From a virus, in IMG/VR virus record IMGVR_UViG_3300010396_000026, positions 1 through 43,643 of that record: a stretch of DNA of 43,643 nt, one strand, 5' to 3'. This document shows, piece after piece, positions 2,321 through 22,262 of the stretch (position 1 is its first letter; the number at the start of each line of letters is the position of its first letter). Below the pieces are notes generated by a model. That model had not been told where the DNA came from. It did no database searches and saw only the letters and a program-made list of their open reading frames with translations. Position numbers and translations under genes: made by a program.

Positions 2321-5097
2321 TGGCGGACATCCATCTTTTGCTTCAGCTTGACCTTGCGGGAGATACGTTTTTTCTCGTAGCCCGCTGCGCGCTCCGGCTC
2401 GCGGATCGAGTAGGGGGCCTGCCTGATGCCGAAAAACTGCTCCGGCCCGCTGATCTTGCTTTCCTGCATCCCGGTCTGGGGCCGGATCGAGATCGGCGAG
2501 AACTGCTGCATCAGGTAGTTGGCATAATCCTTGATGCCCTGCACCGGCTGGCCCTGCCGCGTATCGGTGATTGCGGCGCTGTTCCATTGCTCGTTGTTCA
2601 TCATGTCGTAAAGCGTGGTCCAGAGCGGGTGCACCTTGTTGATGGCCGTCTGCTCGGGCTGGTTGGCCCACTCGACGGCATCCTTCATATACCCCGGCAT
2701 CGACACGCGCTCATCGCCGCCCTGCGCATCCTTGCCGCCGGTCTTGGGAAAGAAATAATCCTTGAACTCCTGCGGCCCCTTGCCGGTCTTGATGTACTGG
2801 TAGAACGCCCCCATCATCGCCGTCATGATCGGCATCGCGACGACATAGGACGCGCGATCGGTGATCTGCTTCATCCCACCCGGAGATTTCTCGCGGCCCT
2901 TGATGCCGGTCTTGGCGATGTCCATAGCCCCGCCGCCCAGCTCCCGCAGCGTGCCGAGGTTCCAGCCGAGGGAACGCACCGCGATGTGGCCGATGTCCTT
3001 CATCGTGCGGTTCCAGAACAGATTGTCGTAGGCCAACTGGCCGAGCCGGTTGTCCACCGAGTCCCAGATGCGCCCCGCCACCTGTCGCAACTGCTTCTGG
3101 TCCATCTTCGGATTGACGCGCAGCTCGTCGCTCATCAGGTCATAGAAAACGCCGAGCTTCATCTTCGGCACCATGTCCTCCATCAGGGGGGCCATGATGG
3201 TATCCATGACACGCGGCACGAGCTGCGCCGCGGCGCGCACCTGTCCCGGCGCGATCTGCATGCCGCCGACTTTGATGGGCGCGGCGTTGCGGAACATTTC
3301 CCGCAGGTCCTGGTCGATCCTCTGCCGCCCGCTCGACCTCATGGCGGTGCCCCGGAACGCCTGCCAGAACGAGCCGGCCGGGGAGCCGCGATAGAACGAC
3401 TCCATCCGCGCCCGTCCGCCGCCGGCGATCAGCGCGTTGACGATCTTCTCCATCTCGGGGCCGTAGGTGCCTCGGCCCAGGTATTGGTTGAGCACCTTGC
3501 GGCCGGTCAGATAGTTCTCGACCGGCGCCGTCGCCTGCCGTCCGAGAAGATTGCCCAGCCCGCGCGCGATCTCGCCCGGCTCGCCACGGCTGATCTGCTT
3601 GATGCCCTTGGCGACCCGCGAGGTCGCGGCGTCGGCAATGACAAAGAGGGCATGGAAGCCGGAGAGGCCAAGCTGCGCCGAGTTCATCATGTTCCCGGCC
3701 GAGCGGATGGTGTCATAGACCGGCTGGCCCGAGAGGCCCGGCGACAGGGCACGGTTGACGATTGTGGCGGCCGGTTCGGGCGCGTAGTAATGGGCGTTGC
3801 CGGCGCGGGCGATCTTGTCCGCGATCGGTATCCAGCCTGGCGGCGGCCGCTCGTCATGCGGCACCTGCACAGCCAGTCCCTCGTCCACCATCTCGTCGAA
3901 CACGTCCCGCGCGGTGATGAAGCGGTCCATCTGGTGGAGCTGCATCAGCGACATTTCAATGGGGTTGTCGGTGACGGGCTTCAGCCCGGCCTCGATCCCG
4001 GCGCGCACCGTGGCGAAGGTGCGCTCTTTCAGGAACTTCTTGCCGCCCTCCAGCGAGCGGCCCCCATACTGGGCGAAGGTATTGGCCGCCTTGGCCGGGT
4101 CCTGCCACAGATGCGGCAGATAATCCTGCACATAGTTGGGCGCGATCCCGAGCTCATCCATCTTGCGCCAGCGCTCGTCGAACAGGCCCCGGATTTCCTT
4201 CGCCAGGCCGCCGAGCTTGGTCCCCTCGTAGGGGCCGAGTTTCCCGGTCTCGATGGCGTCCATGTAGGCAAGGCGCGCGTCCGGCGACAGCTTGCCGACG
4301 GCGGCGCCGAAGCTGCGGAGATTTTCGGCCGCCTGCTGGAAACCCTGTTCCCGGCGTGCCAGCCCCTCCCGAACCATGCCCGCCGTGGTCGATGCCGCCT
4401 CGCCGCGCTTGGCCGGCGAGAAGATGCGCCGGAAATCGTCCGCCACGCCCGAGGGCGGGATGGTCGTGTCGGCCTGCCGCTTGATGTCCTCGATCTGCTC
4501 CGGCGCCATCTCGGCCGCCATCGGCTTGGCCGACTCGGGCGCGGCCGCCGCAGAAGGCATAGGAGGGGCCTCGGGGGGCTTGCGGGTCTCCGTGGCCGTC
4601 TCGGCCCCCTTGACCGCGCCAGCGGGCTTCCCTGTGGCTCCTGGAGGCATTTCAGGCGGGGGCTTAGGTTCGCCCAGCCCCTCGGCCGCCTTTCCGGGGC
4701 CTTGCGTGCCCATCGCGACGTTGCGCGCCTGATCGAGGGTGTTCTGGTATTCCGGGCTTTTTGGATCGAGATGGCGCGCGGCCCATGCCCGCACCCCGGC
4801 CATCGTGGTCAGTTCCTTGGGATCGGCCCCGAACTCTTTGGCGGTCTGCTCGCGCTGCTCCTTGCCCAGCCCCTTGTACCATTGCCAGATGTCGTCTGCC
4901 GTGCGGGCGATGAGGCCGGGCTTCTGCTGCGGCGCAGCATCGAGCCTGAACCCCGGCGGCGGGGGGGGGGGCGCGGCAGGAGCCGCGGGCGGCTTCGTGG
5001 CGGCGTCGAGATTGAAGCCGGGAGGGGGTGGCGGCGGGGCGTTGCCCGGCTGTTTATCGAGCGTGAATCCCGGCGGCGGCGGCGGCGGTGCATCCAT
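2317..5097 (-). CDS. Large internal virion protein candidate with proline-rich N-terminal repeats
   Basis: 926 residues. The N-terminus carries three repeats of six prolines followed by GF(T/N/R)LD within the first 55 residues. A Pro/Ala/Glu-rich linker follows to about residue 190, then a long mostly helical region to the basic C-terminus (KKRISRKVKLKQK). There is no signal peptide and no clear membrane span. Size, place after the tail genes and architecture fit an internal or ejected virion protein. The helical part resembles large polyvalent-protein-associated regions (LPD38 type), but this is from memory and uncertain. An 11-base G run at 4961-4971 encodes prolines of the third repeat and is a possible slippage site. 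Confidence 0.6.
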   Translation of the reverse strand: MDAPPPPPPGFTLDKQPGNAPPPPPPGFNLDAATKPPAAPAAPPPPPPGFRLDAAPQQKPGLIARTADDIWQWYKGLGKEQREQTAKEFGADPKELTTMAGVRAWAARHLDPKSPEYQNTLDQARNVAMGTQGPGKAAEGLGEPKPPPEMPPGATGKPAGAVKGAETATETRKPPEAPPMPSAAAAPESAKPMAAEMAPEQIEDIKRQADTTIPPSGVADDFRRIFSPAKRGEAASTTAGMVREGLARREQGFQQAAENLRSFGAAVGKLSPDARLAYMDAIETGKLGPYEGTKLGGLAKEIRGLFDERWRKMDELGIAPNYVQDYLPHLWQDPAKAANTFAQYGGRSLEGGKKFLKERTFATVRAGIEAGLKPVTDNPIEMSLMQLHQMDRFITARDVFDEMVDEGLAVQVPHDERPPPGWIPIADKIARAGNAHYYAPEPAATIVNRALSPGLSGQPVYDTIRSAGNMMNSAQLGLSGFHALFVIADAATSRVAKGIKQISRGEPGEIARGLGNLLGRQATAPVENYLTGRKVLNQYLGRGTYGPEMEKIVNALIAGGGRARMESFYRGSPAGSFWQAFRGTAMRSSGRQRIDQDLREMFRNAAPIKVGGMQIAPGQVRAAAQLVPRVMDTIMAPLMEDMVPKMKLGVFYDLMSDELRVNPKMDQKQLRQVAGRIWDSVDNRLGQLAYDNLFWNRTMKDIGHIAVRSLGWNLGTLRELGGGAMDIAKTGIKGREKSPGGMKQITDRASYVVAMPIMTAMMGAFYQYIKTGKGPQEFKDYFFPKTGGKDAQGGDERVSMPGYMKDAVEWANQPEQTAINKVHPLWTTLYDMMNNEQWNSAAITDTRQGQPVQGIKDYANYLMQQFSPISIRPQTGMQESKISGPEQFFGIRQAPYSIREPERAAGYEKKRISRKVKLKQKMDVRQ
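4961..4971. repeat. 11-base G homopolymer inside a coding region
   Basis: A run of 11 G on the plus strand (C on the coding strand) lies in the third polyproline repeat of the 926-residue protein. A one-base change would truncate the protein near its N-terminus. It could be a slippage site or a sequencing problem; the frame is intact in this assembly. Confidence 0.85.
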
Positions 5098-7313: not shown

Positions 7314-7888
7314 CAGCCGACAAACCTCCCGTAGCTGGTCTCGAACGCCTTATACCCCAACCACGTCAAAACCGCACCCAGCGTATCGCCCTGCGGCCCG
7401 TCGGTCAGTTTCAGCCCGAACTCGTGCTCGAGCACCATCAGCGCCTCGACCGCTTCGAGGCTGTCCTGCGGCCCCATCTTCAAGTCCTTGGCCTGGTAGA
7501 CCACGCGCACCGGCTTGGGCGCGCTCCATTCCTGCAATTCGCGGTCGGCGCTGAGGATTAGCCGTAGCCCGGTCAGGCCGCGATGCTCCGGCACGACATA
7601 GATCGCATCGTTCATCGCGTGCGGCGTGGTACGGTAGTGGGGATGGCCGCGGAACGTCATGAACGAGCTGAAGCCGATCAGCTTGCCGCCGAGCCGCGCG
7701 CCCATGCAGCGGAACAGGCCGTTATCCTCCATGCGCTGATACTCGTCCCAATCGAGGTCGAGCGGCATGCGGTCGCGGTCGATGGCGACTTCCTCCCACT
7801 CGCGCCGCACCAGCGCCTCGATGCCGTCATCGAGCAGCCGCCCCAGCGGCTCCCACGCGAAGGTCGGATCAGCCGTCCGCTTCGCCAT
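7313..7888 (-). CDS. GNAT-family N-acetyltransferase
   Basis: 191 residues, close to the usual GNAT length. Visible features are a central strand pair (GARLGGKLIGFSSFM), then the strand and acetyl-CoA loop IYVVPEHRGLTGLRL, which matches the V-x-P-E-x-R-G pattern of motif A. A C-terminal Gly-Tyr-x-x-x-E-T strand region follows. Such enzymes move an acetyl group from acetyl-CoA to an amine. The target is unknown. It sits next to a hydroxylase and within virion genes, so a phage structural protein or host protein is a possible substrate. Confidence 0.75.
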   Translation of the reverse strand: MAKRTADPTFAWEPLGRLLDDGIEALVRREWEEVAIDRDRMPLDLDWDEYQRMEDNGLFRCMGARLGGKLIGFSSFMTFRGHPHYRTTPHAMNDAIYVVPEHRGLTGLRLILSADRELQEWSAPKPVRVVYQAKDLKMGPQDSLEAVEALMVLEHEFGLKLTDGPQGDTLGAVLTWLGYKAFETSYGRFVG

Positions 7889-8453
7889 TGATCCGTCTCA
7901 TCTCGAAAATCAGGTGGATGCGCATCGACGCGCCCCAGTTCGCCGCCGAGTGGACGGCGCGGTTGTTGAACCACCACACCGAGCCGACCGGCATGTGGAC
8001 CTGCTCGTTGCCGGAATAGAGCGTCACGCCGGGGTTGGTGACGAGCGGGATATGGAAGCGCGCGTGCTTGTCGTGATAGGGGCCGTCGTCGCGGTGCCAC
8101 ATGATCGTGCCGCCCGGCTCCAGCACGGTCAGCATGGCCCGCGCGATCGGCGCGCTGTTGTCGAGCGCGGCGCGCAGGAGATTGTGCTGAAGGATTTGCT
8201 TCCGCGCGCGGTCGAGGAGCCGCTTCATCGAGGCCCATTTCTCGATCTCGGGGCAGTCATGCACCGGCAAGTCCTCAAGCCAGTTCTCGACCGTGGGCTT
8301 GTTGTGCGCCCGCAGCAGAATCGAGCGGGCCGGCAGCCGCGTGTCGCCGATCTCGCCCCGCGCCTGCACTCCACGCCAGTGCGCCGGGTCCATCTTCGCG
8401 AGGATCGGCATCACCGGAAACGTATCGACATGTCCCACCCAGATGAAATTCAC
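7869..8453 (-). CDS. Aspartyl/asparaginyl beta-hydroxylase-like 2-oxoglutarate/Fe(II) oxygenase
   Basis: 194 residues from a GTG that overlaps the TGA of the upstream zinc-finger gene. The C-terminal half has the family pattern: the iron-binding H-x-D in WHRDDGPYHD, then RFHIPLV, a Val-Trp-Trp-Phe-Asn-Asn segment, the distal iron ligand in AVHSAAN, and the 2-oxoglutarate-binding Arg in RIHLIFE. The family hydroxylates Asp, Asn or related residues using 2-oxoglutarate and oxygen. The N-terminal 90 residues have no recognised domain. Being inside the late operon suggests action during virion assembly or on a host protein late in infection. An upstream in-frame ATG (8483) is possible, but the GTGA overlap is preferred. 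Confidence 0.8.
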   Translation of the reverse strand: MNFIWVGHVDTFPVMPILAKMDPAHWRGVQARGEIGDTRLPARSILLRAHNKPTVENWLEDLPVHDCPEIEKWASMKRLLDRARKQILQHNLLRAALDNSAPIARAMLTVLEPGGTIMWHRDDGPYHDKHARFHIPLVTNPGVTLYSGNEQVHMPVGSVWWFNNRAVHSAANWGASMRIHLIFEMRRINGEADG

Positions 8454-8611
8454 GGCCTGTACCTCGTCTCGGTTGCCCGCCATTCCGCCCGCCGCGCCAG
8501 CACCGCCGCCGTGACCCACGGCTCGGCTTCATGCTCAACGACGATGTGCCGCAAACAATCGCCGCAAAAGGCCACGCGGCTCGGCAGCCCGCAGCACAGG
8601 CAGCGTTTCAC
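8450..8611 (-). CDS. 53-residue four-cysteine zinc-finger protein
   Basis: GTG start overlapping the TGA of the upstream gene; its own TGA overlaps the next GTG. The N-terminus has a Cys-x-x-Cys pair (residues 4-7, with an extra Cys at 6), and FCGDC gives a second pair about ten residues later, the pattern of a treble-clef or ribbon zinc site. The rest is an Ala/Arg/Glu-rich helix. The role is unknown. The fully interlocked starts and stops on both sides support it as real despite its size. Confidence 0.65.
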   Translation of the reverse strand: MKRCLCCGLPSRVAFCGDCLRHIVVEHEAEPWVTAAVLARRAEWRATETRYRP

Positions 8612-9609: not shown

Positions 9610-9690
9610 TCAATGCACCGGCACCACGCCCGGCGATGCGCCGCGGCCGACAGCAAGAAAGTCGGTAAGATGCCCAGTCTCGTCGCTCAT
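9610..9690 (-). CDS. 26-residue micro-ORF bridging two genes
   Basis: The ATG overlaps the TGA of the signal-peptide gene at 9687 (ATGA). Its stop is followed after one base by the ATG of the gene at 9608. The product starts MSDETGHLTDF and ends in GVVPVH. It fills an otherwise empty 80-base gap exactly, which supports real translation or translational coupling. Too short to classify. Confidence 0.45.
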   Translation of the reverse strand: MSDETGHLTDFLAVGRGASPGVVPVH

Positions 9691-10019
9691 TTTTTATGAC
9701 TGGCTTGCTCTAACTTTTGCGCCTTGGCTTTCTCCGCGCCGAGTTGGCGGCGCAAATCGAAAATCTCCGTATCCTTCTTTGTCGCGTCGGCCTTCGCCGA
9801 CATGACTTGCTGATTGAGCGTTTGAACCACTTGCTGCAATTCCTTCACCACCGCCTTGAAGCGGTCGAGCATCGCGGTCGTGGCCGCGCGGTCGGCCTGC
9901 GCGGCCTCTAACTGATCCTGCACGTTTTGCAATTGCTGTTGTAGCTGCGCCGGATTCGGCGTCTGCGCGAGCGCGGGAACCACCAAGAGGCAAAGGGCAA
10001 AAGCGAGTGCGTATTTCAT
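9687..10019 (-). CDS. Exported coiled-coil protein with Sec signal peptide
   Basis: 110 residues starting MKYALAFALCLLVVPALAQ, a textbook signal peptide with an AxA-type cleavage site near residue 19. The mature part is almost entirely Gln/Ala/Lys/Glu-rich coiled coil ending in SHKK. A start six codons earlier is possible but would put polar residues before the signal. It would be periplasmic in a Gram-negative host. It is the last of six adjacent signal-peptide genes. A spanin-like or chaperone role is conceivable but not shown. Confidence 0.7.
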   Translation of the reverse strand: MKYALAFALCLLVVPALAQTPNPAQLQQQLQNVQDQLEAAQADRAATTAMLDRFKAVVKELQQVVQTLNQQVMSAKADATKKDTEIFDLRRQLGAEKAKAQKLEQASHKK

Positions 10020-10074
10020 CGTGCTGAAATTCCCCATTTCCAGAGTTCGTTCGGTGCTTGCGAATATAGCACAA

Positions 10075-13000
10075 TCATTGAAGCCAGCCCGGACCTTCCG
10101 GGTAGTCGGTTTTCAACAACGTACCAGAGACGGCCATTCGCGTTTGCATCTCGCTGATAAGGCTCGCGGCGGAGGTTACCAGCGGCGGCACGCCTACGTG
10201 CTTAAACATCCACAATGCTCCAAGCGCATAGGACGCGTAGCTGTTCGGGCCAAAATCCGCCGTGGCATCCAATGTTGACATGCCAGCCGAGGCAATCGGA
10301 CAGGAAGTGCCAAAGGTGAAGGTCAGCGTCGTGCTGCTAACTGATTGGGACGGACTGATCGCCCAAGTGCCAGATGGGCCGCTAGGAAGATAATTATAGA
10401 CGCCGTTGCCAATCGGCGGTGCGTTTGGCTGGCCCAAGACTGTGCCGCCAGTGACGCCAGTTCCGGTAACGGTGGAACCCGGTTGTGGGTTTAGACCTCC
10501 GGTGTCCGTCATTACGAGACCCGAGATCGAGCCTGTATTCGTGACCGTCGTTTGAGTCGCGAAAGATTGCCCCGCACCCAGAAATTTGGTGTAGGCAGTC
10601 GAGCGCGAGCCAGCGGTCGCTTCAACCGTATTAGTATAGGCATTAGCACCAAACTCACATCCCGCCGTCGTTGAGTCGGCGGAATCGTTCGTGCCATACA
10701 CAAAATTGACGCCGTAGCCCGTCAGGAATGAAAGCATCGTCGAATTGCCGCGCCACGCTTCGAGAGCACCAGTCAGATACGCCATATAAAATTCCCACGG
10801 CGCGGAGCAGCCTGCTGTGTTGTTTGGGCAGCCATTGTCCATGGTGTTATGGACGCCGTCATCGAGATTGCCGAGAGCGGCGTAATTGGCGTTCTGATTT
10901 CCGCCCCACGCTACGAGATATGCGGAAGTGTCCGCCATCAGATCGGCAAGGTAAGGCTGCACTGGATCATTGATGGGGGTGACCCACAGTGCATTCGAGA
11001 CGTGATCGGTTGACCACGCGTTAGCACGGGGCTGCGCTGCGTCAGGTGTGTTTATCAGCCCCCAATAAGTTACACCGCCTATCGTGGCGCTGGTCGGCTC
11101 CGTGCTGAGCGCCCCGCGCTGCGCGAGTGTGAAATTGTTGGAGAGGCTCTGAATTTCCCTCAAATAAGTAATGTCGCCGGTTTGCAGATACGGGCCATAC
11201 CCAGGGTTTGGTAAATGCGACGACGTTGCGATTCCGGTTTCTTGACCGGACGAAAACTGGTTGGTGTCGGCAAGCGTTGTGCTAACCGTCCCCGGCACCG
11301 GAGACCCGGCCCCGGCAAAGATGCCATAATCTGGATTGACTGGCGCGAAGCCAGCATAGGTCACGCCGTTCTTAGCGTGGCCGTCATTGAGTATTCCCAT
11401 GCAATGACAACGCTCGTCCATGAGCGCCGCCATCGTGAAGCCTTGGAACGTGTGCGCCAGAACTTTGGCGTTCCAGCAATCCTTTGTATCAACTGCGCTC
11501 GCAGCCATCGAGTAGAGGCACCGCACGGCGCTATGGTTCATCACGCCGACGTTTTCTCGGCCAACATTATCGCCGAAATTGTCGATGTTTCCCGGCCACG
11601 GCAGCGAGTTTTGGCTAAACGCTAGAATTTCCTGGAAGCCGCCCGACGCGCAGCACGGAGCCGTGACGTTATTGATCGTGATTCCAGATTGCCACGGCAG
11701 CACGGCTTTGCTCTTGGTTGCAAGATAGGTGAAGTCCTGCCCCTGCAAAACCGTGGCGACCGAGTTTCCGATACGCTCACCGCCTGGCGGTACCAACATC
11801 GCTTCCGTGCGTGGGAAGGTCGCGATCAAGGGGGAGAAAGTTATCGTGCCGCTGCCCTGCGTCGTGAACAACGTACCAATAAAATCCCAAACACAAGTTC
11901 CATCGGTGATTCCGTTGGCAGCGGTCGATGTGAATGGATTGGAGCCGCCAGAGGTGCAGGGCTGCGCCCCGTCTTGTTTATAGAGAATGTTGTTGGCAAC
12001 TACGCCAGTTGAGCCAGTCGCATAGGTGTTGTAGCCTGTTGTTGCGCTCCACGTCCCGCCAAAATTTCCTCCGTCATTCCAGCCAACCGATTGTGTCTGA
12101 TTTGGTGCAAGGAAGGCCGTACTGCCGCCCGGCGCAACATACTGATTACATGCGAGCCAGTAGGGCGTTGAAGAACTAAGTCCGCTCGGGAGCGAGCCGC
12201 TAAGTTGCCACGGAGCGCCGCCGCTACCGTAAGTCGTATTAGCTTCGCTGCATCCTGTTGTTCCACCTGCATTAGGGAGCGTTACATAACCGCCCGCGAC
12301 ATTGAACGCCGTACTCGATACGGTGAACTTACGCGTGTCGTTTACACCGCCGAAATAGCCGATGACACTCGCGCCGTTCAAAATCTCGGCGGTGAAATAG
12401 TGCGCCCCCTCTGGTGTCGTGCCGACCGTGCCCGCGTCGTTCGGGCCGTACATATTTTCCTGTGCGACGCTGCCGTTGACCTCGAAATTACCGTCCGACC
12501 ATGCGCGGATGTCGAGCTTGCCAACGAGGAATTTATGAAACGCCCCGTCAGTAGTGCGCTGTAGAACACCCCAGCACTCGATCTCGATGTCCGAAGGGCC
12601 GGAACGAATTTGCTGACAACCTTCGATGGGCACGGTTTTTGTCACACTCGCCAGCGTCTGCGAGATATTGACCGAGTACGTACCCGCACCACCCGGCGTT
12701 CCGCTCAATTGCGATGTAATGATCGTCCCTGTCGCCGCGCCGACAACAGCGTTGCCCGCTGCGATGTAACCGCAGCTAGACGCTCCAACCGTCAGCATGG
12801 TTCCGCTGATCGACGAACTTGTCAGGCATCCCGACCCGCCAGGTGTTCCGGTTTCGACGCCCCACGAAAACGCCGTCGCACCGACATTGATGATGTTGTT
12901 TACAGTGACATCCCAATTATCGGTGCCGAGATCGCCGCCCGCACCCGTGACCTGCAATATCCAATTAGAATTACCGGCAAGCTGAGTCAGCGTTTCCCAA

Positions 13001-13677
13001 GGTGTATTGTTCGGAGCAACAGAACTGGCGTAGAGGTCATAAAGGATCGTGCTTCCTGCCGTGATTGTATCCGGCGAAATGAACGATGGCACCACGAATG
13101 AATAACTGCCGTCGGTGTTCTGCCTTGCGCCTTGATCCATCTGCACGTTCGATATGATCGTGCTGCTGCCGTGGGCGCGCAGTTGCAACGAATATCCGTT
13201 CGGCAGATCGCCTAATTGAAGCGGCTGGCCGAAACTTAAATCAGGGTTCGTAAGGGTAGAAGGGCCGTTGTTCAAAAACGTAATGGAAATGCCGAGGCTC
13301 GTTGCTGAACTCCCCGTCAATGTCTCGGGTTGCGTGAACGGCGAACTGCTGGCCCCCGCCATAGTCGCAATGAGATTGATCGAATAAGTGCCCGCCGCGA
13401 CCGTGCCGTTGCACTCCAACGAACTGCCGGAAACCTTGAAGCTCGCCGCATCGGTGCCTGAGAGCGAATAGCTACCGGTGAACGATCCGCCCGTCGTCGT
13501 CGTGGAGATCGTCGCAATAACGGTACTGTCGGCGCAGGAGGTCAGGAATGAGTTGGTGCTGAGGCTGACGCCTGTAATCGTGACGCCGCCTGCACCTGCG
13601 CTGATTGGCATCAAGAACGCATGAGCATTGCCACCCAGCCCCAAGAGAACCGCGAAGGCGAGAAGCAGGCGGCGCAT
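10075..13677 (-). CDS. Very large secreted tail-spike-like protein with signal peptide
   Basis: 1200 residues beginning MRRLLLAFAVLLGLGGNAHA, a Sec signal peptide. The N-terminal third is Ser/Thr/Gly-rich and beta-structured (SLSGTDAASFKVSGSSLECN, an Ig-like pattern). Two copies of a phage-tail module follow, one near VGAATGTIITSQLSGTPGGA and one near STVTGTGVTGGTVLGQ, each ending in an SQT/SQS-V motif. The long region between is Trp/Asn/Tyr-rich (ANAWSTDHVSNALWV, AYLVAWGGNQNANY) and may be an alpha/alpha-toroid glycan-active domain; this is a guess. Base composition is clearly less GC-rich than the head genes, suggesting separate acquisition. Probable receptor-binding or depolymerase protein. 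Confidence 0.6.
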   Translation of the reverse strand: MRRLLLAFAVLLGLGGNAHAFLMPISAGAGGVTITGVSLSTNSFLTSCADSTVIATISTTTTGGSFTGSYSLSGTDAASFKVSGSSLECNGTVAAGTYSINLIATMAGASSSPFTQPETLTGSSATSLGISITFLNNGPSTLTNPDLSFGQPLQLGDLPNGYSLQLRAHGSSTIISNVQMDQGARQNTDGSYSFVVPSFISPDTITAGSTILYDLYASSVAPNNTPWETLTQLAGNSNWILQVTGAGGDLGTDNWDVTVNNIINVGATAFSWGVETGTPGGSGCLTSSSISGTMLTVGASSCGYIAAGNAVVGAATGTIITSQLSGTPGGAGTYSVNISQTLASVTKTVPIEGCQQIRSGPSDIEIECWGVLQRTTDGAFHKFLVGKLDIRAWSDGNFEVNGSVAQENMYGPNDAGTVGTTPEGAHYFTAEILNGASVIGYFGGVNDTRKFTVSSTAFNVAGGYVTLPNAGGTTGCSEANTTYGSGGAPWQLSGSLPSGLSSSTPYWLACNQYVAPGGSTAFLAPNQTQSVGWNDGGNFGGTWSATTGYNTYATGSTGVVANNILYKQDGAQPCTSGGSNPFTSTAANGITDGTCVWDFIGTLFTTQGSGTITFSPLIATFPRTEAMLVPPGGERIGNSVATVLQGQDFTYLATKSKAVLPWQSGITINNVTAPCCASGGFQEILAFSQNSLPWPGNIDNFGDNVGRENVGVMNHSAVRCLYSMAASAVDTKDCWNAKVLAHTFQGFTMAALMDERCHCMGILNDGHAKNGVTYAGFAPVNPDYGIFAGAGSPVPGTVSTTLADTNQFSSGQETGIATSSHLPNPGYGPYLQTGDITYLREIQSLSNNFTLAQRGALSTEPTSATIGGVTYWGLINTPDAAQPRANAWSTDHVSNALWVTPINDPVQPYLADLMADTSAYLVAWGGNQNANYAALGNLDDGVHNTMDNGCPNNTAGCSAPWEFYMAYLTGALEAWRGNSTMLSFLTGYGVNFVYGTNDSADSTTAGCEFGANAYTNTVEATAGSRSTAYTKFLGAGQSFATQTTVTNTGSISGLVMTDTGGLNPQPGSTVTGTGVTGGTVLGQPNAPPIGNGVYNYLPSGPSGTWAISPSQSVSSTTLTFTFGTSCPIASAGMSTLDATADFGPNSYASYALGALWMFKHVGVPPLVTSAASLISEMQTRMAVSGTLLKTDYPEGPGWLQ

Positions 13678-13678
13678 T

Positions 13679-14698
13679 TTATGAGTGCGTGTAGGTTACG
13701 ACGATGCCGCCGGGACACCCGTTGCCAGTGCCGCCCGGCGTGGTCGAGCCGAAAGCACCGCCGCCGCCGCCCGCACCCCATCCGTTCGTCGGGCAGGAGC
13801 CGCCGCCATATCCTGTAGCCGTATTATTGCCGCCGCCGCCACCGCCGCCGGTCGGGCCATAGGTGCCGCCGTAAAGCACTTCGATGCCACCCGATGCGCC
13901 GGGATTCGTGTCTCCATTGCCATATCCGCCTTGACCACCGCCGCCAACGGTGCCCGCCCCTGGTGGGGGGACTGAACTTGTTCCCCCACCAGTACCACCA
14001 GTACCATTACCGCCGTTTGCGCCCGAGCTGCTAGTCGCGCCTGTTCCTGCGGTGCTGCTTCCACCATCCGAGCCGCCGCCGCCTGAGCCACCTGCGCCGA
14101 AGGAGAGACCGGCATCGCCACCGCCCGCCTTGCCGACGCCGGTTGGCCCCGGAGAACCCGCGCCGCCGCCGCCGCCCGTATTATTGGTGACGCCGCCTGC
14201 TGCGCCGTTGTTTTTCGTATCGCCCGTGCCCGTTGAACAGCCTGTCCCCGCCGTCCCGGTCGCGGTGCTGTTGCCGCCCGTCCCCGCGCTTGCTGTACCG
14301 TTCCACGCCGTCGCGGTGCCGCTGCCATGCGCGCCTATCGTGTAGGAAACCGTGCCGCTCGGCGTGACCGTGCCGATGTAGGTGCCCGTTGTCGCGGTGA
14401 CGTAGCAACCAGAGCCGCCACCGGAACCGGATTGATAAGCCGTCGTCGTGCCCGCGTGGCCGTCGCCGCCCGCTCCGTATAATTCTACTTTCGTGACGGC
14501 GCAAAGATTAGCGGGGACAGACCAGTTATTCGTGCCGGTCGTCGTGAGTTCGACGACGGTTGTGCCGACGACGCTGCAACCGCCGCCCGCCTTCTTCGTA
14601 TCCCCATACACTCCCCCGCCGATGATGGTGGAGTTCTGGGCGAGGGCTGGCGACAGCCCCGCCAACAGGAAAGCCAGCGCAACGATAAATCTCCGCAT
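13679..14698 (-). CDS. Glycine-rich tail-fibre-like protein with signal peptide
   Basis: 339 residues. Starts MRRFIVALAFLLAGLSPALAQ, a clear signal peptide. The N-terminal third has hydrophobic strands (VTKVELYGAGGDGHAG), and the rest is dominated by Gly, Thr, Ser and Asn with several runs of four to seven glycines. Such glycine-rich tips resemble the polyglycine sheets of some phage adhesins (for example the T4 gp38 type), but no specific match was seen. It lies two bases from the 1200-residue gene, so the two probably act together. Confidence 0.6.
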   Translation of the reverse strand: MRRFIVALAFLLAGLSPALAQNSTIIGGGVYGDTKKAGGGCSVVGTTVVELTTTGTNNWSVPANLCAVTKVELYGAGGDGHAGTTTAYQSGSGGGSGCYVTATTGTYIGTVTPSGTVSYTIGAHGSGTATAWNGTASAGTGGNSTATGTAGTGCSTGTGDTKNNGAAGGVTNNTGGGGGAGSPGPTGVGKAGGGDAGLSFGAGGSGGGGSDGGSSTAGTGATSSSGANGGNGTGGTGGGTSSVPPPGAGTVGGGGQGGYGNGDTNPGASGGIEVLYGGTYGPTGGGGGGGNNTATGYGGGSCPTNGWGAGGGGGAFGSTTPGGTGNGCPGGIVVTYTHS

Positions 14699-14701
14699 GG
14701 C

Positions 14702-16210
14702 CTAGTACCCGTAGTAACCCTGGGCCGAACAGTAAACGGTGCTGACACCACTGCTTGCGGTGAAGGTCAGGGCGGTATTTGCGGCAACGACGAGCGGAAC
14801 CAAAAAATGACTATTGTTCCCGCCGCCACCGCCATTATTCGGCAGGACCAAAATGGTTGATGCTCCGTCATTCAAGGTGACATAGATCGCCGTTGTTCCT
14901 GCGTCAGTACGGCCACATTCAACATCGGTCACATACTCTTTCAGCGAAGCACTGCCGCTCGCGGCTAGAATAGTTCCTGCACTTGTGTCGGTTTTGCTCG
15001 CGCTTCCCCGCACATAATTTTCGCGGTTGGCGTAAGGCGAGGTCACTTCCTTGCCAACGAGATCACGGAAATCATCTGCCGTATTTCCGGACGTAACCTT
15101 GGTCGGCTCGGTAACGCCCGAGCCAAAGCCAATGCCCTGCACCAGCGAGCCGTTACCCGCTGCCGCGTTATTTGCCGTGCCAGTATTCGGTGACACCGCA
15201 ACCACAAGGGCCTTGTCTGTCGCCGCAGGCGCAGTGCTGGCGGCTTTGACGGCCGCCGGGCCATTGGTGTTATCAGTGATTGCGGAGAAAATACCATTTG
15301 TAGCCGACAACACTGAGCCGCCTTGGTTAAGAGTCGCCGTCGCCAGGATCGGCGTCATTGACGCGATGCCTTGAATCGTGACCACGCCAGAATTTGCGCT
15401 TCCGGCAGTTCCAGCGCCGATAACCGTAGCATTAAGATTGGATGCCGTTGCCTGACTCACTTGCACCGGGGTCATGCCGGTGATGCCCTGCACCGTCAGA
15501 ACGCCTGTTGCGGGCGTCCCAGCCGATGCCGAGCCTGTTGCCGTCACCTTCAGATTTGCTGCTGTGGGCTGCACAACAGTCACTGCGCTTTGATCGCTCG
15601 CGATCACAACCGGCAGAGACGCCGCGCTCAAGGCAGAACCGAGAGCGATATTCGAGCCGCCGACTTGCGTAAGATTGACATTGCTGCTGGCCCCGGCGCC
15701 AGCGCCGCCGCCATAACATGTGTTGCCGAGGCCCGAGCCGCCGATGAGATTAAGGGTGGTCGTGCTTGATGCCGTGATGCCCGCGATGAATCCATTGGCT
15801 CCGACGGTAACGGTACAGCCACCTAACGCGGGAACGGCCAAGTCCGAAGTTGTAGCCGTTACGCCTGACGTTGTCCCCAGCTTTATGTAGGCGACATTTG
15901 ATCCAATGTTTTGCACGAGCACCACGGCGCTTGCCGCCGGTAATGCCGTCTCGCTGGTGCTATTCGAGACAGAAAGCGGCGTGGCATCGGTGCCGTTGGG
16001 GGTGAAGCCCGTCGTGGTCGCGGAAAAGCTGCCCGTAATTTTGAGATTGCCGTTCGCGTCCATCTGGAACGGCGCGGTTTGGTAATTCGTGAGGGTGGGC
16101 GGCGTCGAATTATAGATGCCGCCATTGACCGCGTCCGGCTTGGTCTGCTGCGCCTCGGCGGAAAAAGCGGCGAGGCAAAGAAGCCCCGCCGCCAGGATCG
16201 CCCGCATCAT
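14702..16210 (-). CDS. Tail-associated protein with signal peptide and beta-rich body
   Basis: 502 residues from a double ATG after the upstream TAG. Starts MMRAILAAGLLCLAAFSAEAQ, a signal peptide. The body is Ala/Thr/Ser/Gly/Val-rich with repeating strand units: a VLTVQGITGMTPVQVSQATA unit is echoed by VVTIQGIASMTPILATATL about 40 residues later. The C-terminus (FLVPLVVAANTALTFTASSG, then VYCSAQGYYGY) resembles jelly-roll ends of phage surface proteins. Function is inferred from position among tail genes. Confidence 0.6.
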   Translation of the reverse strand: MMRAILAAGLLCLAAFSAEAQQTKPDAVNGGIYNSTPPTLTNYQTAPFQMDANGNLKITGSFSATTTGFTPNGTDATPLSVSNSTSETALPAASAVVLVQNIGSNVAYIKLGTTSGVTATTSDLAVPALGGCTVTVGANGFIAGITASSTTTLNLIGGSGLGNTCYGGGAGAGASSNVNLTQVGGSNIALGSALSAASLPVVIASDQSAVTVVQPTAANLKVTATGSASAGTPATGVLTVQGITGMTPVQVSQATASNLNATVIGAGTAGSANSGVVTIQGIASMTPILATATLNQGGSVLSATNGIFSAITDNTNGPAAVKAASTAPAATDKALVVAVSPNTGTANNAAAGNGSLVQGIGFGSGVTEPTKVTSGNTADDFRDLVGKEVTSPYANRENYVRGSASKTDTSAGTILAASGSASLKEYVTDVECGRTDAGTTAIYVTLNDGASTILVLPNNGGGGGNNSHFLVPLVVAANTALTFTASSGVSTVYCSAQGYYGY

Positions 16211-16211
16211 G

Positions 16212-17450
16212 CTAGAAATCCGAACTGAACGTGACGGTATTGGCCGCCCCGGTGTTGGCGTAGAGGCCGACATGCATGGTGCCGACCGCAGCGGTTTCCG
16301 ACAGGGCGCAAGTGAACTTGGCGCTGTACAGTGTCGCGGTCGAGGCAACGATTGCCAGCGTCGAGCAGGCCCCGGCGGTGCCGTCCGCCACCTTCGTCAT
16401 GCCGAAGGATGTCGCGGTCGCCACGGCAATGGTGGGGGCTACCCGCATTGTCTGGGGGAACGCCATCAGGCACGCCGCCACGGTGTTGGCGGTGTACTCG
16501 GTGCAGGTCATCGGCAGCACGTAGGTGGCCGCCTGGTTATCGGCCAGCTGCCAGTAATAACGCTGCGCCTGGACAAGTTCCTCGCCATAGGGGCGATACT
16601 CGAACGCGGAGGCGGTCGAGCCCTGCTCCAGCTGCGCGCCGGTGAAGCGGAAGCCATCGGTCGCCCCCGCCGTGCCGCCCGTGGTCGGCGTCCAGCACAG
16701 CGCCATCGCCGCCTCGGTCGCCGTCGCCGGGACCTGGAACGTCGCGGTGTAGCGCGCCCAGGACGAGGTGATGGTGAAGGCCGCCGTCTGCGAGGACGAG
16801 ATGCCAGTGAAGGCGGGCGTGACCGCCGGCGAGGCGGTGAAGGATTGCAGCCCTTCATCGGCCCCGGTGCCGGTGAACAGATAGGCGTTCACCGTCGTGC
16901 TCTCGGCCAGCATGTTGGCAAGGCCCTGGATATAGACCGAGAAAGTCACGGCCTGACCCTGAAGCGGGGTGATGCGGCTGGTCGGGATTTCCTGCATCAC
17001 GCATTGCGGCTGCGCCAGCGAACCCGAGGTGCGATAGAACAACTGCGCCGCGTTGAAGATCGGCTGCGTCGGGAGGCTGGCCGCGATGACCTGAAGCGTG
17101 CCCGCGCCGGACGTGACGTTGACATTGCAGCCCCAGCGGTCGGCGGAATAGGCCGAGGACGGGATGGTGGTGGTGCCGCAGGTGCGGGTGCCGGTGCCGC
17201 GCTGTTGCACCTGCATCTGCCCATTATCGAGCAGATTGCGCGGCGTCGAGAAGGTCGCGACGGATTGCGGCGTGATGTACGAGTTGATCGCGTTGATCAA
17301 CTGGTTGAGCGTCGCGATGCCCGGCGGCTGGTCGGCGGTCGGGTTCGATCCCGAGGGGCCGGTGAACAGCGGGATGCTGGCCGCATAGGCGGCGGTCGAA
17401 ATGAGGGCGGCGGCGATGCCGAAAGCCCCCAGCCATTTCGGAAATCTCAT
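16212..17450 (-). CDS. Phage tail protein with signal peptide and carbohydrate-binding-like domain
   Basis: 412 residues from the ATG preceded by GGAGGAG. Starts MRFPKWLGAFGIAAALIS and continues to a cleavage site near TAAYAAS. After a linker comes NLLDNGQMQVQQRG, then YSADRWGC. Near the end of the domain is FEYRPYGEELVQAQRYYW. This set (N-x-x-x-N-G-x-x-x-x-Q-R-G, Y-x-x-D-R-W, P-Y-G-x-E-L-x-x-x-Q-R-Y-Y) is common in phage tail-fibre and baseplate proteins with a carbohydrate-binding-like sandwich. The C-terminal 100 residues are a separate beta-rich domain. A signal peptide on this family is unusual. Confidence 0.75.
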   Translation of the reverse strand: MRFPKWLGAFGIAAALISTAAYAASIPLFTGPSGSNPTADQPPGIATLNQLINAINSYITPQSVATFSTPRNLLDNGQMQVQQRGTGTRTCGTTTIPSSAYSADRWGCNVNVTSGAGTLQVIAASLPTQPIFNAAQLFYRTSGSLAQPQCVMQEIPTSRITPLQGQAVTFSVYIQGLANMLAESTTVNAYLFTGTGADEGLQSFTASPAVTPAFTGISSSQTAAFTITSSWARYTATFQVPATATEAAMALCWTPTTGGTAGATDGFRFTGAQLEQGSTASAFEYRPYGEELVQAQRYYWQLADNQAATYVLPMTCTEYTANTVAACLMAFPQTMRVAPTIAVATATSFGMTKVADGTAGACSTLAIVASTATLYSAKFTCALSETAAVGTMHVGLYANTGAANTVTFSSDF

Positions 17451-17520
17451 TGTCTTTCTCCTCCGCCGTCTCGGCGTCTGTTGCGTGTGTAACACAAAAA
17501 CCGTTTCCGCTGTAGCGCGG

Positions 17521-18765
17521 TCAATATCGCCCCTGAAGGATGATGGATTGGTTCGGCGATCCGCCAAAGGTCATCGAGCCGACCGCGCCGCCCCATTCCA
17601 TCGCCTGTGCGAAGTGCAGACCCAGCAGGGGAGCCGTGGCCAGATTGACAAATACCATCCCTTTGTTGCTTCCGGTCGTCCCGCCGGGCTGCGTGTAGGT
17701 TCCATTGATCGTTGGCGTTCCGCTCGTCGCATCGAAAAGAATGCCGATGGCCCCCGATGCGGTGGCCGCTGTGAGAGTAATCTGGTCCTGATACGAGGCC
17801 GTGACGGAAATCTGTTGCAGGCCGTCCAGCCATGTCGCGCGGTTGTTGTTGTTGTTGTCCGCGACCCGCCACGTCGAGGTGTTGTAACTCCACGGGACAT
17901 TGCTGTCCGCCGAGGACAGTTTTGCGGACACGCGGTTATAGGCGTTGAACAATCCCGCGATGGCGTTGCCGCCGCCCGCCGCCGAAACCGGGGCAACGTC
18001 CATCGTGGTCTGGCCGTTTCCGGTGGCATAGATCGAGCCGAGATAGGTGCCCTTGTTGGCCGCGATCGCGCCGTAATCGGTGGTTCCCGATGCGCCGCCC
18101 CAGCAATGGGTCAGCGATACCGTGTTCGTCCACAGCCCCAGGGATTGGTCGATCTGCGTGGTGCCCGCGCCGGTGCCGCGCGTGCTCGTAGTTGACCATG
18201 CCGGGCCGGTGCAGGTGGCGAGCGTCCCGGAATTGCTGACGCCGAAAACGTCATAGATGCTGCCGCTTGCGATGTGCGGTGTGCCGGAATCGAGGCCCAT
18301 TGCCAGATTGCCGGACGGGATCGCCAGCGCCACGAAGTTGGTGCCGTTCCAGACCGGCACGGCGAGGCCGGTATAGGCGACGTAATAAACGGTGGTGGCC
18401 GCCGAGACGTTGCCCGTCATCACGGCGACGGCGCTGGTGAGCGACAGCCGCCCCTGTGGCGTCGTCCCGCAGGCACCCGAGACCCATGCCGGGGTCGAGT
18501 TGCCGACGAGGCAATTGTAGTTGGCGGCGGCAACGCCGGTCGGCGAGTTGTCGCCATGCGAGATAACCGCCTGCCCACTTGAGGGCCATGTCACCGTCAG
18601 CGAAGATACGCTCGCGCCGGAATCCCCCGCCTGCTGCCGGTTCGAGGTCGCGGAATAAAGATGCCCCGAGGTGATCGAGGCGGGCGCGTTGACCGGGTTC
18701 GGCACCTGCTGGCCCCATGCCGGGGCGGCGGCGAGGAGCAGCGCGGCGAGGAGATAGCGCATCAT
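17521..18765 (-). CDS. Tail-fibre-like protein with signal peptide
   Basis: 414 residues. The double ATG overlaps the stop of the upstream gene. Starts MMRYLLAALLLAAAPAWGQ, a signal peptide. The body is beta-rich, with GTGAGTTQIDQSLGLWTNTV, GTYLGSIYATGNGQT and STWRVADNNNNN, a pattern seen in many tail proteins of alphaproteobacterial phages and prophages. It ends in GGSPNQSIILQGRY. Likely a fibre or fibre-tip protein; the enzymatic content, if any, is unknown. Confidence 0.65.
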   Translation of the reverse strand: MMRYLLAALLLAAAPAWGQQVPNPVNAPASITSGHLYSATSNRQQAGDSGASVSSLTVTWPSSGQAVISHGDNSPTGVAAANYNCLVGNSTPAWVSGACGTTPQGRLSLTSAVAVMTGNVSAATTVYYVAYTGLAVPVWNGTNFVALAIPSGNLAMGLDSGTPHIASGSIYDVFGVSNSGTLATCTGPAWSTTSTRGTGAGTTQIDQSLGLWTNTVSLTHCWGGASGTTDYGAIAANKGTYLGSIYATGNGQTTMDVAPVSAAGGGNAIAGLFNAYNRVSAKLSSADSNVPWSYNTSTWRVADNNNNNRATWLDGLQQISVTASYQDQITLTAATASGAIGILFDATSGTPTINGTYTQPGGTTGSNKGMVFVNLATAPLLGLHFAQAMEWGGAVGSMTFGGSPNQSIILQGRY

Positions 18766-19169
18766 GGCACTTGCACCCATTGGCTTCCGTTGAACTGAAT
18801 TTTGAGCATTTCGTAAGGGAGACTCAGCGTCGGGTTTGACGACCCTCCCTGGTAATTGTTGCCGTTCAAGGCGATCGTCACCGGGTTGGTGTTGGCGTTC
18901 CCCGAGGTATCGACGAACACAATTTCGTCCCATTGGCTCGGCGAGGCGTTGAGCGTCGCCGTCATCGCCCCGGCGCTGGTCTGGCAATGGTAGATGCCGC
19001 CCGCGGCCGCGCTGAAGCTCGACGTCTCGATGGTCGGCGTCGCCACCACCTGCCGGACATTGCTCACCGCCGTCTTGACGTTGGCGCCGCCCTGCACCAG
19101 CGGCACCAATTCGCTGCCGGAAAGCGGCAGCGTCGCGTCGGGCAATTGGGAGATTTTTTCGTCGCTCAT
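18762..19169 (-). CDS. Small tail-fibre attachment-type protein
   Basis: 135 residues. MSDEKISQLPDATLPLSGSE followed by LVPLVQGG is the widespread opening of phage tail proteins (ISxLPxATxPLxGxELVPxVQGG). A beta-rich C-terminal unit follows (MTATLNASPSQWDEIVFVD) and ends KIQFNGSQWVQVP. In other phages this opening is fused to a fibre; here it stands alone just before the signal-peptide fibre genes and overlaps both neighbours by ATGA. It has no signal peptide, unlike the next six genes. Confidence 0.7.
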   Translation of the reverse strand: MSDEKISQLPDATLPLSGSELVPLVQGGANVKTAVSNVRQVVATPTIETSSFSAAAGGIYHCQTSAGAMTATLNASPSQWDEIVFVDTSGNANTNPVTIALNGNNYQGGSSNPTLSLPYEMLKIQFNGSQWVQVP

Positions 19170-21502
19170 GGCGAGCTTTCGAGAAGGAGGTCGCCGCTGC
19201 TGTCCTCAAGCACGATCTTGAAGCCAGTTTCCAGCAACAGATATTCCGGCACCACGACCGGCGGCACGATGGGACCGATCTGGTAGCCCAAAATCTGGTA
19301 GCGCATGTAAAGGTTGCCGATCTCGACGTTCTGCGCCGCCTCGAACGTGGCCGTCACCGCCATCTGCTTGAAGACGACGGGCGCGGGCCACGGCAGGGCC
19401 TGCTGCGCCAGATTGCCGCCCACCCCCGGCAGCGTCACCGTGCCGAGGAGATTGTCGTTCTCGTCGGTTGCCGTCACGGTCACGGCGAACGGGGTCTTGA
19501 ACATCAGCGACGATTCGACGACGGCGTTTTCCGCCATCATCTGGTTGTCGGGCAGGAGCGCGGTCTCGTAGGTGCATTGCAGCGTGGTGCCGTTCTCGAC
19601 GTAATCGGTGCCGAAGATCGACACCACCGGCGACTCCCAAAGCTGGTTCGGCTGGTCGTAGGGGAAGCCGACAAAGCCGTGATCGGCGTTGCCGACGGTG
19701 CGGCCCTGCCACGGCGCGATGAGGCGCATCGGAAAACTGTGCGGCCCCGACCATACCTTGAGCCGGAAATCGTACCAGTATTCCTCGTAAGGCTGATCGG
19801 CCTTCGCGCCGTTCTGAACCGAGACGCGGTAGACGTTCTGATTGTAGGCGGCGCACATCCGCGCCGGCCATACCGCGTTGATGAACGGCACCGAAACGCC
19901 GTCGCCGTTGGCCCCGATGGGCGGCGACAGCACCGCGAAGAAATTGAGGATGCGCAGCCCATCCGTCCCCATGAAAGCAAGACCGGCGTCGGTCTGGACG
20001 ATGGTGTTGGGCGCAAGGCACCCGGTGCCGACCGAGATGTTGTTGCGGGCGAGGTTGTTGGTCGCGGCGTCGCCGGTGATCTGGGCCATGTTGGAATCGC
20101 CCTGGAACACCACCAGCGCCTGCACCATGCCGCCCAGCGAGGTCGAGTTGAGGGGTAGTTGCGCGAGCGCCGTGACGGCGAGGCCGTTGGCGAAGGTGAT
20201 GGCCTGCACCGAGGAAAGGTTGCTGACCTGCGTCGCGTTGAGCGTGTCGGAAAAGACGAGGCCAAAGCTGCCGCCGTAATAGGCGCGGCCGTTGAACTCG
20301 GCCACCGTCGCCGGGATGCCGGGCAGGGCGAAGCCGTTGGTGTTGCCCGAGGCCCATTGCGGCGCGACCGGGGTGCCGCCGTCGATGGTCAGGGTGTCGC
20401 CGACATTGGCCGAGGTGGTGTTGGCCGAGATCGTGATCGTGGCCCCGCCGGTGAAATCGACCGCGAGCGAGGTGCTGGTGGCGGTCGCCGCCGCCGAGAG
20501 GGTGACAGTATTGCCGCCGTCGATAGTGAGCGAGTCGCCCGAGTGCGAGCCGGTCGCGGCCTTGGTCAGCACGATGGTCGAGACCGTGACGCTTGCCACC
20601 AGCGTGCCCGCCGGGATGTCGCCGCTGCCGTCGGTGATCGACATGCCGGGCAGCACGCCCGTGGTGGAGGCGACGCCCGAGATCGTGGTGGTGCCGTTGG
20701 TGGTGCCGGTGGTCGAGAGCGAGAAGGTGCTGACGGAGGACACCGTGGTGCCGGCCAAGATCGCCGGGCCGGAGACCTGCATGCCCGCCAGCACGCCCGT
20801 CACATCCTGCACGTTGGTGATGATGAGGCTGCCCGCGTTGAAATTCCCGTCGGTCTGAAGGTCGAACGAGGGCCGGGTCATGGCGATGACGGTCGAGTTG
20901 GCCGGGATGCCGGTGCCCGAGATCGTCATGCCGATGCCGACGCCCGCGGCGATGGGGTCGGTCGAGAGGCTGGTAATCACCGCCGTCGAGCCGTCGGTGT
21001 TGCCAGTCAGCGTCGCCGAGGAATAGGACGAAATGTCGAGCCAGCCGAAAAAGCCGTTGCTCGATCCCAAAAAACCGGGATGGCAGAAGATCACGCGGCT
21101 GCCGACGAGGGCGATGATGGGCGGGGTCCAGTTGCCCGTGGTCGATTGGCTGACCGGCAGGTTCGAGGCCGTGATGCCGCTGATCGAGAGGAAGGTGCCG
21201 GTGTTGAGATTATAGGCCCACGGCACATCGTAGCCCGAATACGTGCCCGACGAGCAGCCCATGAAGCCATAGGCGATGTTGCCGACGACGAGCAGCCCGG
21301 TGCCGACCGTCGGCGCCGCGATGCCGGAGAATGCCGTGACCTGCCCCGAGGCCGGGCGCGGCACCCACGCGTCCTTGGTGGTGGGCGATGGGATCAGGTT
21401 GATGAGCTGCTGCATCGCGCCCGGAAACGAGTCGGTCGCGTCCTCGGTGTCGGAAAGACCCTTCGGTTTCCAGATCAGCGGGCGGGCGTTGCGGATCGCC
21501 AT
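19166..21502 (-). CDS. Tail tube/stabilisation protein (P22 gp10- or T7 gp12-like position)
   Basis: 778 residues. Both ends read as one beta-propeller-like protein typical of podovirus tail nozzles: ARPLIWKPKGLSDTEDATDS at the start, and VYRVSVQNG, YEEYWYDFRLKVWSG, YMRYQILGYQIGP near the end. Residues of about 170-400 hold tandem inserted modules of the pattern G-M-x-(I/V)-S-G-x-x-I-x-A-(G/N)-(S/T)-T-V, at least three copies, followed by a TLTIDGG-rich stretch. It directly follows the gp4-like gene, the P22-type order. Predicted to form the tail tube or close the portal; the exact counterpart is inferred. Confidence 0.7.
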   Translation of the reverse strand: MAIRNARPLIWKPKGLSDTEDATDSFPGAMQQLINLIPSPTTKDAWVPRPASGQVTAFSGIAAPTVGTGLLVVGNIAYGFMGCSSGTYSGYDVPWAYNLNTGTFLSISGITASNLPVSQSTTGNWTPPIIALVGSRVIFCHPGFLGSSNGFFGWLDISSYSSATLTGNTDGSTAVITSLSTDPIAAGVGIGMTISGTGIPANSTVIAMTRPSFDLQTDGNFNAGSLIITNVQDVTGVLAGMQVSGPAILAGTTVSSVSTFSLSTTGTTNGTTTISGVASTTGVLPGMSITDGSGDIPAGTLVASVTVSTIVLTKAATGSHSGDSLTIDGGNTVTLSAAATATSTSLAVDFTGGATITISANTTSANVGDTLTIDGGTPVAPQWASGNTNGFALPGIPATVAEFNGRAYYGGSFGLVFSDTLNATQVSNLSSVQAITFANGLAVTALAQLPLNSTSLGGMVQALVVFQGDSNMAQITGDAATNNLARNNISVGTGCLAPNTIVQTDAGLAFMGTDGLRILNFFAVLSPPIGANGDGVSVPFINAVWPARMCAAYNQNVYRVSVQNGAKADQPYEEYWYDFRLKVWSGPHSFPMRLIAPWQGRTVGNADHGFVGFPYDQPNQLWESPVVSIFGTDYVENGTTLQCTYETALLPDNQMMAENAVVESSLMFKTPFAVTVTATDENDNLLGTVTLPGVGGNLAQQALPWPAPVVFKQMAVTATFEAAQNVEIGNLYMRYQILGYQIGPIVPPVVVPEYLLLETGFKIVLEDSSGDLLLESSP

Positions 21503-21503
21503 G

Positions 21504-22262
21504 TCACCAGCCGATCGTCTTGGTGTTTCTCAAGACGCTGAACTGACTGCCGAAGCGGCGGCGGTCGAGCTTCACCTTCTTGGCCCGCGTCTCGGGATTG
21601 TCGATCATGGGCAGGATGCGGCGCAGGATACCTTGAGCGCCTTCCGGCCCCTCGCCCAGAAAGGACTGCCAGCGCGCATCGTCCGCGAGCTTCATCATCT
21701 CGCCGGCGAGGCGGGTGTAGAGATAGGTCGAGGACGGGAACCACAACGTCGCTGTCGAGGTCGGCGAGGTCGAAGTCGGCACCGCGTTGCCCGCCCGGTA
21801 GCGGACATAAACCGGGAAATTGCCGGACGGCGGCGGGTAGACATACATGCCCGCGTTCTCGCTGGCGTCCTGCCCCAGAATCACCGTGTACCAGTAGGGA
21901 TAGGCTTGCAGCCCGGCCTGCTGCACCGTCATATCGAACTCGAAGGGATCGAGGGCGATCATCGGGTACGGCACGCCGAGCAGCGTCCAGAACACATCGC
22001 CGAACTCGGCGCGGAGAAAATCGGCCGGCATCGGGTAAGGCCCCGACCCGACCTGCACCGGCGAAGACGCGGGCGGCGTCAGCGCGGTGTTGAAGTTGAA
22101 GGTGAAGAACTTTTCCTGCGCGTCGAAATCGTAAGTCTGCGCCAGTTCCTCAAGGATCGCGACAAGGATCAGCGCCGCCTGCGAGGCAAAGCCCGGCGTC
22201 TTGGCGATCTGGTTCGCGACGGTGATGATCTGCGCGAATGTGAGCTGTGCGCTGGCCGGCAT
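21504..22262 (-). CDS. Head-tail adaptor, P22 gp4-like
   Basis: 252 residues. The middle has PYPMPADFLRAEFGDVFW and PYPMIALDPFEFD, and the C-terminus KKVKLDRRRFGS, a combination familiar from gp4-like tail accessory proteins of podovirus-like phages. It lies directly before the nozzle-like gene, one base away from its ATG. It is expected to extend the portal channel and hold packaged DNA. Confidence 0.65.
   Translation of the reverse strand: MPASAQLTFAQIITVANQIAKTPGFASQAALILVAILEELAQTYDFDAQEKFFTFNFNTALTPPASSPVQVGSGPYPMPADFLRAEFGDVFWTLLGVPYPMIALDPFEFDMTVQQAGLQAYPYWYTVILGQDASENAGMYVYPPPSGNFPVYVRYRAGNAVPTSTSPTSTATLWFPSSTYLYTRLAGEMMKLADDARWQSFLGEGPEGAQGILRRILPMIDNPETRAKKVKLDRRRFGSQFSVLRNTKTIGW

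Follow-up and report, generated by a model that had tools for sequence, protein, structure and literature searches.

Why would a virus furnish a whole run of fibre-like late genes with signals for export from the cytoplasm? The question is raised by six consecutive and tightly coupled late genes (9687-18765, minus strand) of the window analysed here, the window being the whole 43,643-base stretch of a single IMG/VR virus record. The accepted site of tail-fibre assembly is the cytoplasm, which counts against a model of exported fibres. We nevertheless lean, with some reserve, toward the reading that the receptor-binding fibres of this phage are exported via Sec, oxidized in the periplasm and attached to the virion at lysis.

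The minus strand of the window carries genes for a terminase (28659-30662), a portal/adaptor (26568-28655), a major head protein (24163-25617), a 252-aa protein of the late region (21504-22262) and a 778-aa tail protein (19166-21502), the last lacking matches in the viral contigs and deposited phages searched; because of this gene set, we read the virus as probably a short-tailed phage. The tail protein gene precedes that of a stand-alone, adaptor-like protein of 135 aa (18762-19169, minus strand), which is without a signal peptide, lies directly upstream of the six genes, overlapping the first of them, and has an orthologue at L001:7269-7673 (55% identical). This protein matched Pfam T4_gp9_10_N weakly (E 6e-4, below cut-off), as it did phrog_972, a tail fibre proximal subunit (2.5e-5), with a stronger match to phrog_31104 of unknown function (3e-15). 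Separate from the exported block, the likely lysis region (minus strand, within 31.2-32.9 kb) comprises putative genes for a lipoprotein-like protein (32371-32724), a holin-like protein (32103-32357), an overlapping spanin-like pair (31869-32099 and 31730-31915) and a Pfam cell-wall hydrolase (Hydrolase_2; 31235-31630). Also on the minus strand of the late region are genes for an aspartyl/asparaginyl beta-hydroxylase family protein (7872-8519) and an ATP-grasp (GARS-like) enzyme (995-2242).

The first-pass annotation had ascribed a basic start, a hydrophobic core and an AxA-like site to the six proteins, which start at 18765 (or 18762), 17450, 16210 (or 16207), 14698, 13677 and 10019, and the sequence confirmed this at all six, each N-terminus displaying the anatomy of Sec/signal peptidase I substrates with a basic n-region, an uncharged hydrophobic h-region of at least 8 residues and a small-x-small site. 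Likely cleavage, marked by a slash and given in order from P0001 to P0006, is at APAWG/QQ, TAAYA/AS, SAEA/QQ, SPALA/QN, NAHA/FL and VPALA/QT, with the sites of P0001, P0003 and P0005 read by eye and placed elsewhere by our scorer. This home-made, rule-based scorer (net positive start, uncharged hydrophobic core, small-x-small site) was applied to home-made gene calls from metagenomic contigs. On a control stretch of E. coli K-12 with 42 genes, scores of at least 5 went to ompA, csgI, appA, gfcA, gfcB, gfcC and gfcE, all encoding envelope proteins, with no cytoplasmic gene called and the Tat substrate hyaA missed. In the window, 8 of 50 genes were called vs. an average of 0.25 (maximum 2) after shuffling of the first 40 residues, and the longest run of calls, six, had a permutation p of 6e-5, bearing out the claim of six consecutive late genes with signal peptides. 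Across the window and related loci (561 kb), there were 81 calls on the sense strand vs. 13 on the antisense strand. Chance or a high-GC artefact as the source of the signal peptides was ruled out by the antisense and shuffle controls. The start codons are supported by their coupling to preceding stops, the ATG at 18765 overlapping the stop before it (ATGATG) and the starts at 16210, 14698 and 13677 lying 1-4 nt past the previous stop.

Database matches bear out a fibre-like nature for just part of the block: P0002 (412 aa; 16212-17450, signal peptide 17450-17382) matches the tail fibre family phrog_4492 (E 2.1e-31), but P0003, P0004 and P0005 had no family match in Pfam and phrog searches and P0006 is a predicted coiled coil. 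P0002 comprises an N-terminal module, a CBM4/22-like carbohydrate-binding sandwich of tail-fibre type (residues 67-282) and a C-terminal domain. The suggested check of the fibre fold by structure prediction succeeded for this protein, with an AlphaFold2 model (pLDDT 79) resembling CBM4-2 (Z 15.8) as well as the solved CBM-like phage tailspikes and fibres (Z 12-14) CBA120 TSP4 (5w6h), K2-2 TSP (8iq9), Klebsiella Kp7 gp52 (7xyc) and the Pa193 tail fibre (9b45), and matching phage tail fibres throughout the viral structure library; the single-sequence prediction for P0005 (pLDDT 31) was unusable. P0002 thus shares with the CBM-domain tail fibres and tailspikes of phrog_4492 its carbohydrate-binding fold, sequence family and genome place. 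By sequence homology and by its tail/fibre gene slot it belongs with Caudoviricetes tail fibres of this type, and it departs from a usual, if not strictly defining, trait of theirs in carrying an export signal.

The remaining genes of the block are likewise on the minus strand. P0001 (414 aa; 17521-18765, signal peptide about 18765-18712) has a fibre-like body, and its mature N-terminus (residues 19-48) is 57% identical to that of L001:8270-9865, from which the body differs. P0003 (502 aa; 14702-16210, signal peptide about 16210-16151) has a GGIYNSTPPTLTN...DANGNL-type N-terminal domain homologous to L013:11247-11726, with the cysteine pair of the L013 homolog jointly absent; a search of viral contigs yielded no confirmed homolog of P0003. 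P0004 (339 aa; 13679-14698, signal peptide 14698-14639) is glycine-rich, and the large P0005 (1200 aa; 10075-13677, signal peptide about 13677-13618) had no homolog in the viral contigs or deposited phages searched. Family searches of P0001 to P0005 revealed no hydrolase domain and no spanin feature (lipobox, or transmembrane anchor with coiled coil). P0006 (9687-10019, signal peptide 10019-9966), a 110-aa coiled coil without a mature cysteine, is probably a periplasmic accessory and not a fibre. Its matches were weak coiled-coil ones only, e.g. the spanin phrog_3268 (E 0.0024); P0006 may be the i-spanin, but the window has another spanin-like pair, with overlapping genes, at 31730-32099. Short cysteine-free signal-peptide proteins (85-87 aa), comparable with P0006, also occur near exported fibre genes at L023:4405, L029:15619 and L031:14589.

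If the signal peptides work, the proteins fold in an oxidizing compartment, and paired mature cysteines are therefore expected. For P0002, the full-length comparison covered 25 homologs with a signal peptide (the window's included) and 5 plain ones with ordinary phage N-termini; all 25 retain the signal peptide though its sequence diverges freely, and a maximum-likelihood tree placed the exported and plain homologs on opposite sides of one branch (support 100/98). The number of mature cysteines was even in 25/25 exported homologs (4, 6, 8 or 10) and changed at least 9 times on the tree; the plain homologs had 6, 3, 1, 6 and 3 cysteines. Individual pairs covaried: C91 and C108 were both present in 13 homologs, both missing in 16 and single in one, this exception being a plain homolog, and C150-C252 were found together in 24 and singly in none. 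The C-terminal domain mostly has C316-C327 plus C362-C381, or else C325-C393, and in the P0002 model C316/C327 and C362/C381 are predicted to lie on consecutive strands, the placement required for a cross-strand disulfide. All 5 plain homologs, but none of the 25 exported ones, had a lone cysteine, Cys295 (LCQRYY). Plain phrog_4492-type homologs (n=5) thus lack a signal peptide and the covarying pairs and keep the lone cysteine, whereas P0002 is the reverse.

Other loci showed the same parity. Among all called proteins of at least 150 aa in the window and L001-L032, cysteine number was even in 58 of 65 signal-peptide proteins vs. 94 of 215 others (Fisher p 1.4e-11); a second set, L035-L081, gave 68/72 vs. 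48/115 (p 1.5e-14), and 43/44 for its signal-peptide proteins outside the GTTADA family. Neither p-value corrects for common descent or for near-copies; for the P0002 family on its own, a conservative bound of about 0.002 follows from the nine changes on the tree. Cysteine density per 100 aa was 1.5-1.6 in signal-peptide proteins vs. 0.65-0.72 in others, and P0001 to P0005 have 4, 8, 4, 6 and 20 mature cysteines, respectively, with none in P0006. Parity and covariation, along with the signal peptide kept in 25/25 homologs, lend strong independent support to the earlier proposal of periplasmic export of fibre-like proteins, and we consider Sec export with disulfide formation very probable. In signal-peptide anatomy and even, paired cysteines, the block resembles Gram-negative Sec/signal peptidase I substrates with periplasmic disulfides, but unlike these it consists of phage fibre proteins without a known secretion role.

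Comparison with plain relatives bears on what is exported. Residue 6 onward of the plain L012:8522 aligns with residue 25 onward of the exported L003:8195, at 38% identity across 292 columns, and a weaker alignment of this kind joins L014:6129 and L003:3328; as judged from sequence, ordinary fibre proteins have simply gained a signal peptide at the N-terminus. The final base of the tail-protein gene is where the exported fibre gene starts in L003 and L004, which is the usual slot for a fibre; this placement after the tail protein is conserved in L001-L014. In the rest of the L002 and L003 records, both from near-complete relatives, no plain fibre was recognized in the gene list, which a sequence-dissimilar fibre could escape, and further exported fibre-like genes were found (L120:5994 and L122:5642). 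The mature N-module of P0002, ANIPLxTGPxDPSQLxATLNxLI, precedes a P0002-type body in 16 proteins; a further 19 hits, some of them near-copies and one truncated, join it to a different or an incomplete body. Plain fibre-type proteins occur alongside exported ones in L012 (8522) and L007 (5762); given these and the plain 135-aa adaptor of the window, the exported proteins may be extra in some phages.

Three fates had been offered for the exported proteins, namely assembly onto virions after membrane breakdown, release as glycan-degrading or decoy proteins, and a coat on the infected cell. Assembly onto virions fits best because of the fibre slot, the lack of another recognized fibre in L002 and L003 and the sharing of the N-module by unrelated bodies. 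We surmise that P0001 to P0005 would be the receptor-binding fibres of a short-tailed phage that follows an exported-fibre strategy. Their late translation would be coupled to that of the tail genes, as gene order and overlaps attest; Sec would carry them across the inner membrane and signal peptidase I very likely remove the first 18-23 residues, after which folding with paired disulfides would very likely proceed in the oxidizing periplasm, as parity and covariation strongly suggest. The exported fibres would then build up as capsids and tails fill inside the cytoplasm; once the envelope is breached by holin and endolysin, the fibres would come into contact with these particles and their mature N-modules would dock onto the tail, probably via the 135-aa adaptor in the window phage. 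The CBM-like domain of P0002 would serve to bind surface polysaccharide or exopolysaccharide, and P0006 would act as a separate periplasmic helper. Given export, we regard attachment to the virion on or after lysis as moderately probable. Finished particles can acquire P22 tailspikes or T4 fibres in vitro, which makes late attachment chemically plausible; no report of docking at lysis for exported fibres was found in the literature searched. Receptor-binding proteins can dock via a short N-terminal segment on an adaptor, as in branched Klebsiella phage systems. The block shares with these a conserved N-module, exchanged bodies and an adjoining adaptor gene but differs in that its N-module begins directly after the signal peptide cleavage site.

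A less likely account, though one with a real share of our belief, is that the proteins are exported and never enter the virion, acting as soluble glycan-binding or -degrading proteins, as decoys for receptors or debris, or as an envelope-retained block to superinfection. Such proteins would bear an identical export signature, and the CBM-like domain and the several different bodies per genome suit them; moreover, related signal-peptide proteins that share the N-terminal Cys-pair domain are encoded next to an Rhs gene on a Rhizobium plasmid, so domains of this type can have roles outside virions. Against this account are the following: 1) two near-complete relatives would be left without a recognizable virion fibre; 2) the genes occupy the fibre slot; 3) fibre-type N-terminal domains and a common mature N-module are retained. 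We would argue, without claiming proof, that a purely secreted decoy would not need alignment with plain fibres, the fibre slot or a shared N-module.

We think it improbable that the block is mixed, with one or two exported fibres in the virion and P0004, P0005 and P0006 being secreted accessory (matrix-binding or enzymatic) proteins, an arrangement in keeping with the absence of a fibre-family match for P0004 and P0005, of any homolog found for P0005, and with the coiled coil of P0006, but at odds with the operon and export signature common to P0001-P0005. Less probable still is that the hydrophobic N-terminus is an assembly or trimerization element kept in the virion while the fibres stay cytoplasmic: the same body does occur with other, plain N-termini in homologs, whereby N-terminal modules are evidently exchangeable, yet very divergent homologs have canonical three-part signal peptides with small-x-small sites, and cysteine parity, cysteine density and loss of the lone cysteine would go unexplained.

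The search of related phages for the exported block showed that exported fibre-like genes are not unique to the window phage. Close homologs of P0002 were found in 10 viral contigs, a number that rose to 30 with an alignment-based search; a further homolog lies on a contig assigned to a Hyphomicrobiales metagenome-assembled genome, although this contig may be of phage origin and have been binned there. A second fibre family has the N-terminal domain GVPCSLPFNLQNGTTADATQVMANYNALVACL; it was detected in 49 viral contigs and almost always carried a signal peptide, and together the two families span roughly 70 metagenomic viral contigs. Tblastn of 50,697 deposited phage records with P0002, P0005, L003:8195, L022:9584, L022:12134 and a 68-aa signal-peptide-type N-domain revealed no signal-peptide version of these families; matches were few, partial and C-terminal, and the ctXG6705 homolog has an ordinary N-terminus. 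The Alphaproteobacteria control phages Cd1, SIO1 and Lo5R7ANS had no signal-peptide fibre, and 297 genomes from the order of the Hyphomicrobiales bin had plain prophage-type fibres and one exported homolog, L032. To the wider claim, that a widespread lineage of short-tailed phages exports its fibres via Sec, locks them with disulfides in the periplasm and mounts them only during lysis, we give an even chance.

Other signal-peptide genes turned up in these searches. On Rhizobium etli plasmid pRetIE4803d (L084), three in tandem (9921-12894) lie beside YD-repeat and Rhs genes and share the N-terminal Cys-pair domain with exported phage fibres, a possible bacterial reuse of the domain. Signal-peptide proteins of ~215-235 aa that start ADLxxKAP... 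and have GFYxG stretches occur at L005:6290-6931, L010:5189-5866 and L122:2320-3030, with further ones of the type at L046 (about 3611-4297) and L075 (about 648); the four checked in Pfam had no match. They recall outer-membrane barrel proteins of Rhizobiales, and a phage-encoded outer-membrane protein is possible. Twin-arginine type N-termini (SRRGF...) at L020:204-515 and L046:2294 suggest that some related phages also encode Tat substrates.

In the phage papers surveyed here, the known uses of Sec signals are in lysis proteins, namely SAR endolysins as in JG068 (PMC3765740) and Rz1-type spanin lipoproteins as in JC1 (PMC9144972); these have host export signals as in the block but are lysis proteins, not fibres. 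Our literature search on signal peptides and phage tail proteins, in which subscription journals were thinly covered so that an earlier description is possible, found no exported fibres reported. The new element here appears to be tail fibres of a known kind with an unusual assembly route. Exported fibres would contradict the usual picture of phage fibres being made and mounted in the cytoplasm. The combination of a signal peptide with even cysteines offers a sequence signature for finding receptor-binding proteins in metagenomes, and recombinant fibres of such phages may need periplasmic expression. If the model is true, assembly of a tailed phage spans two compartments, its fibres can use disulfides, its intracellular virions are fibre-free and hence unable to bind intracellular precursors of glycans or receptors, and lysis could time the addition of fibres.
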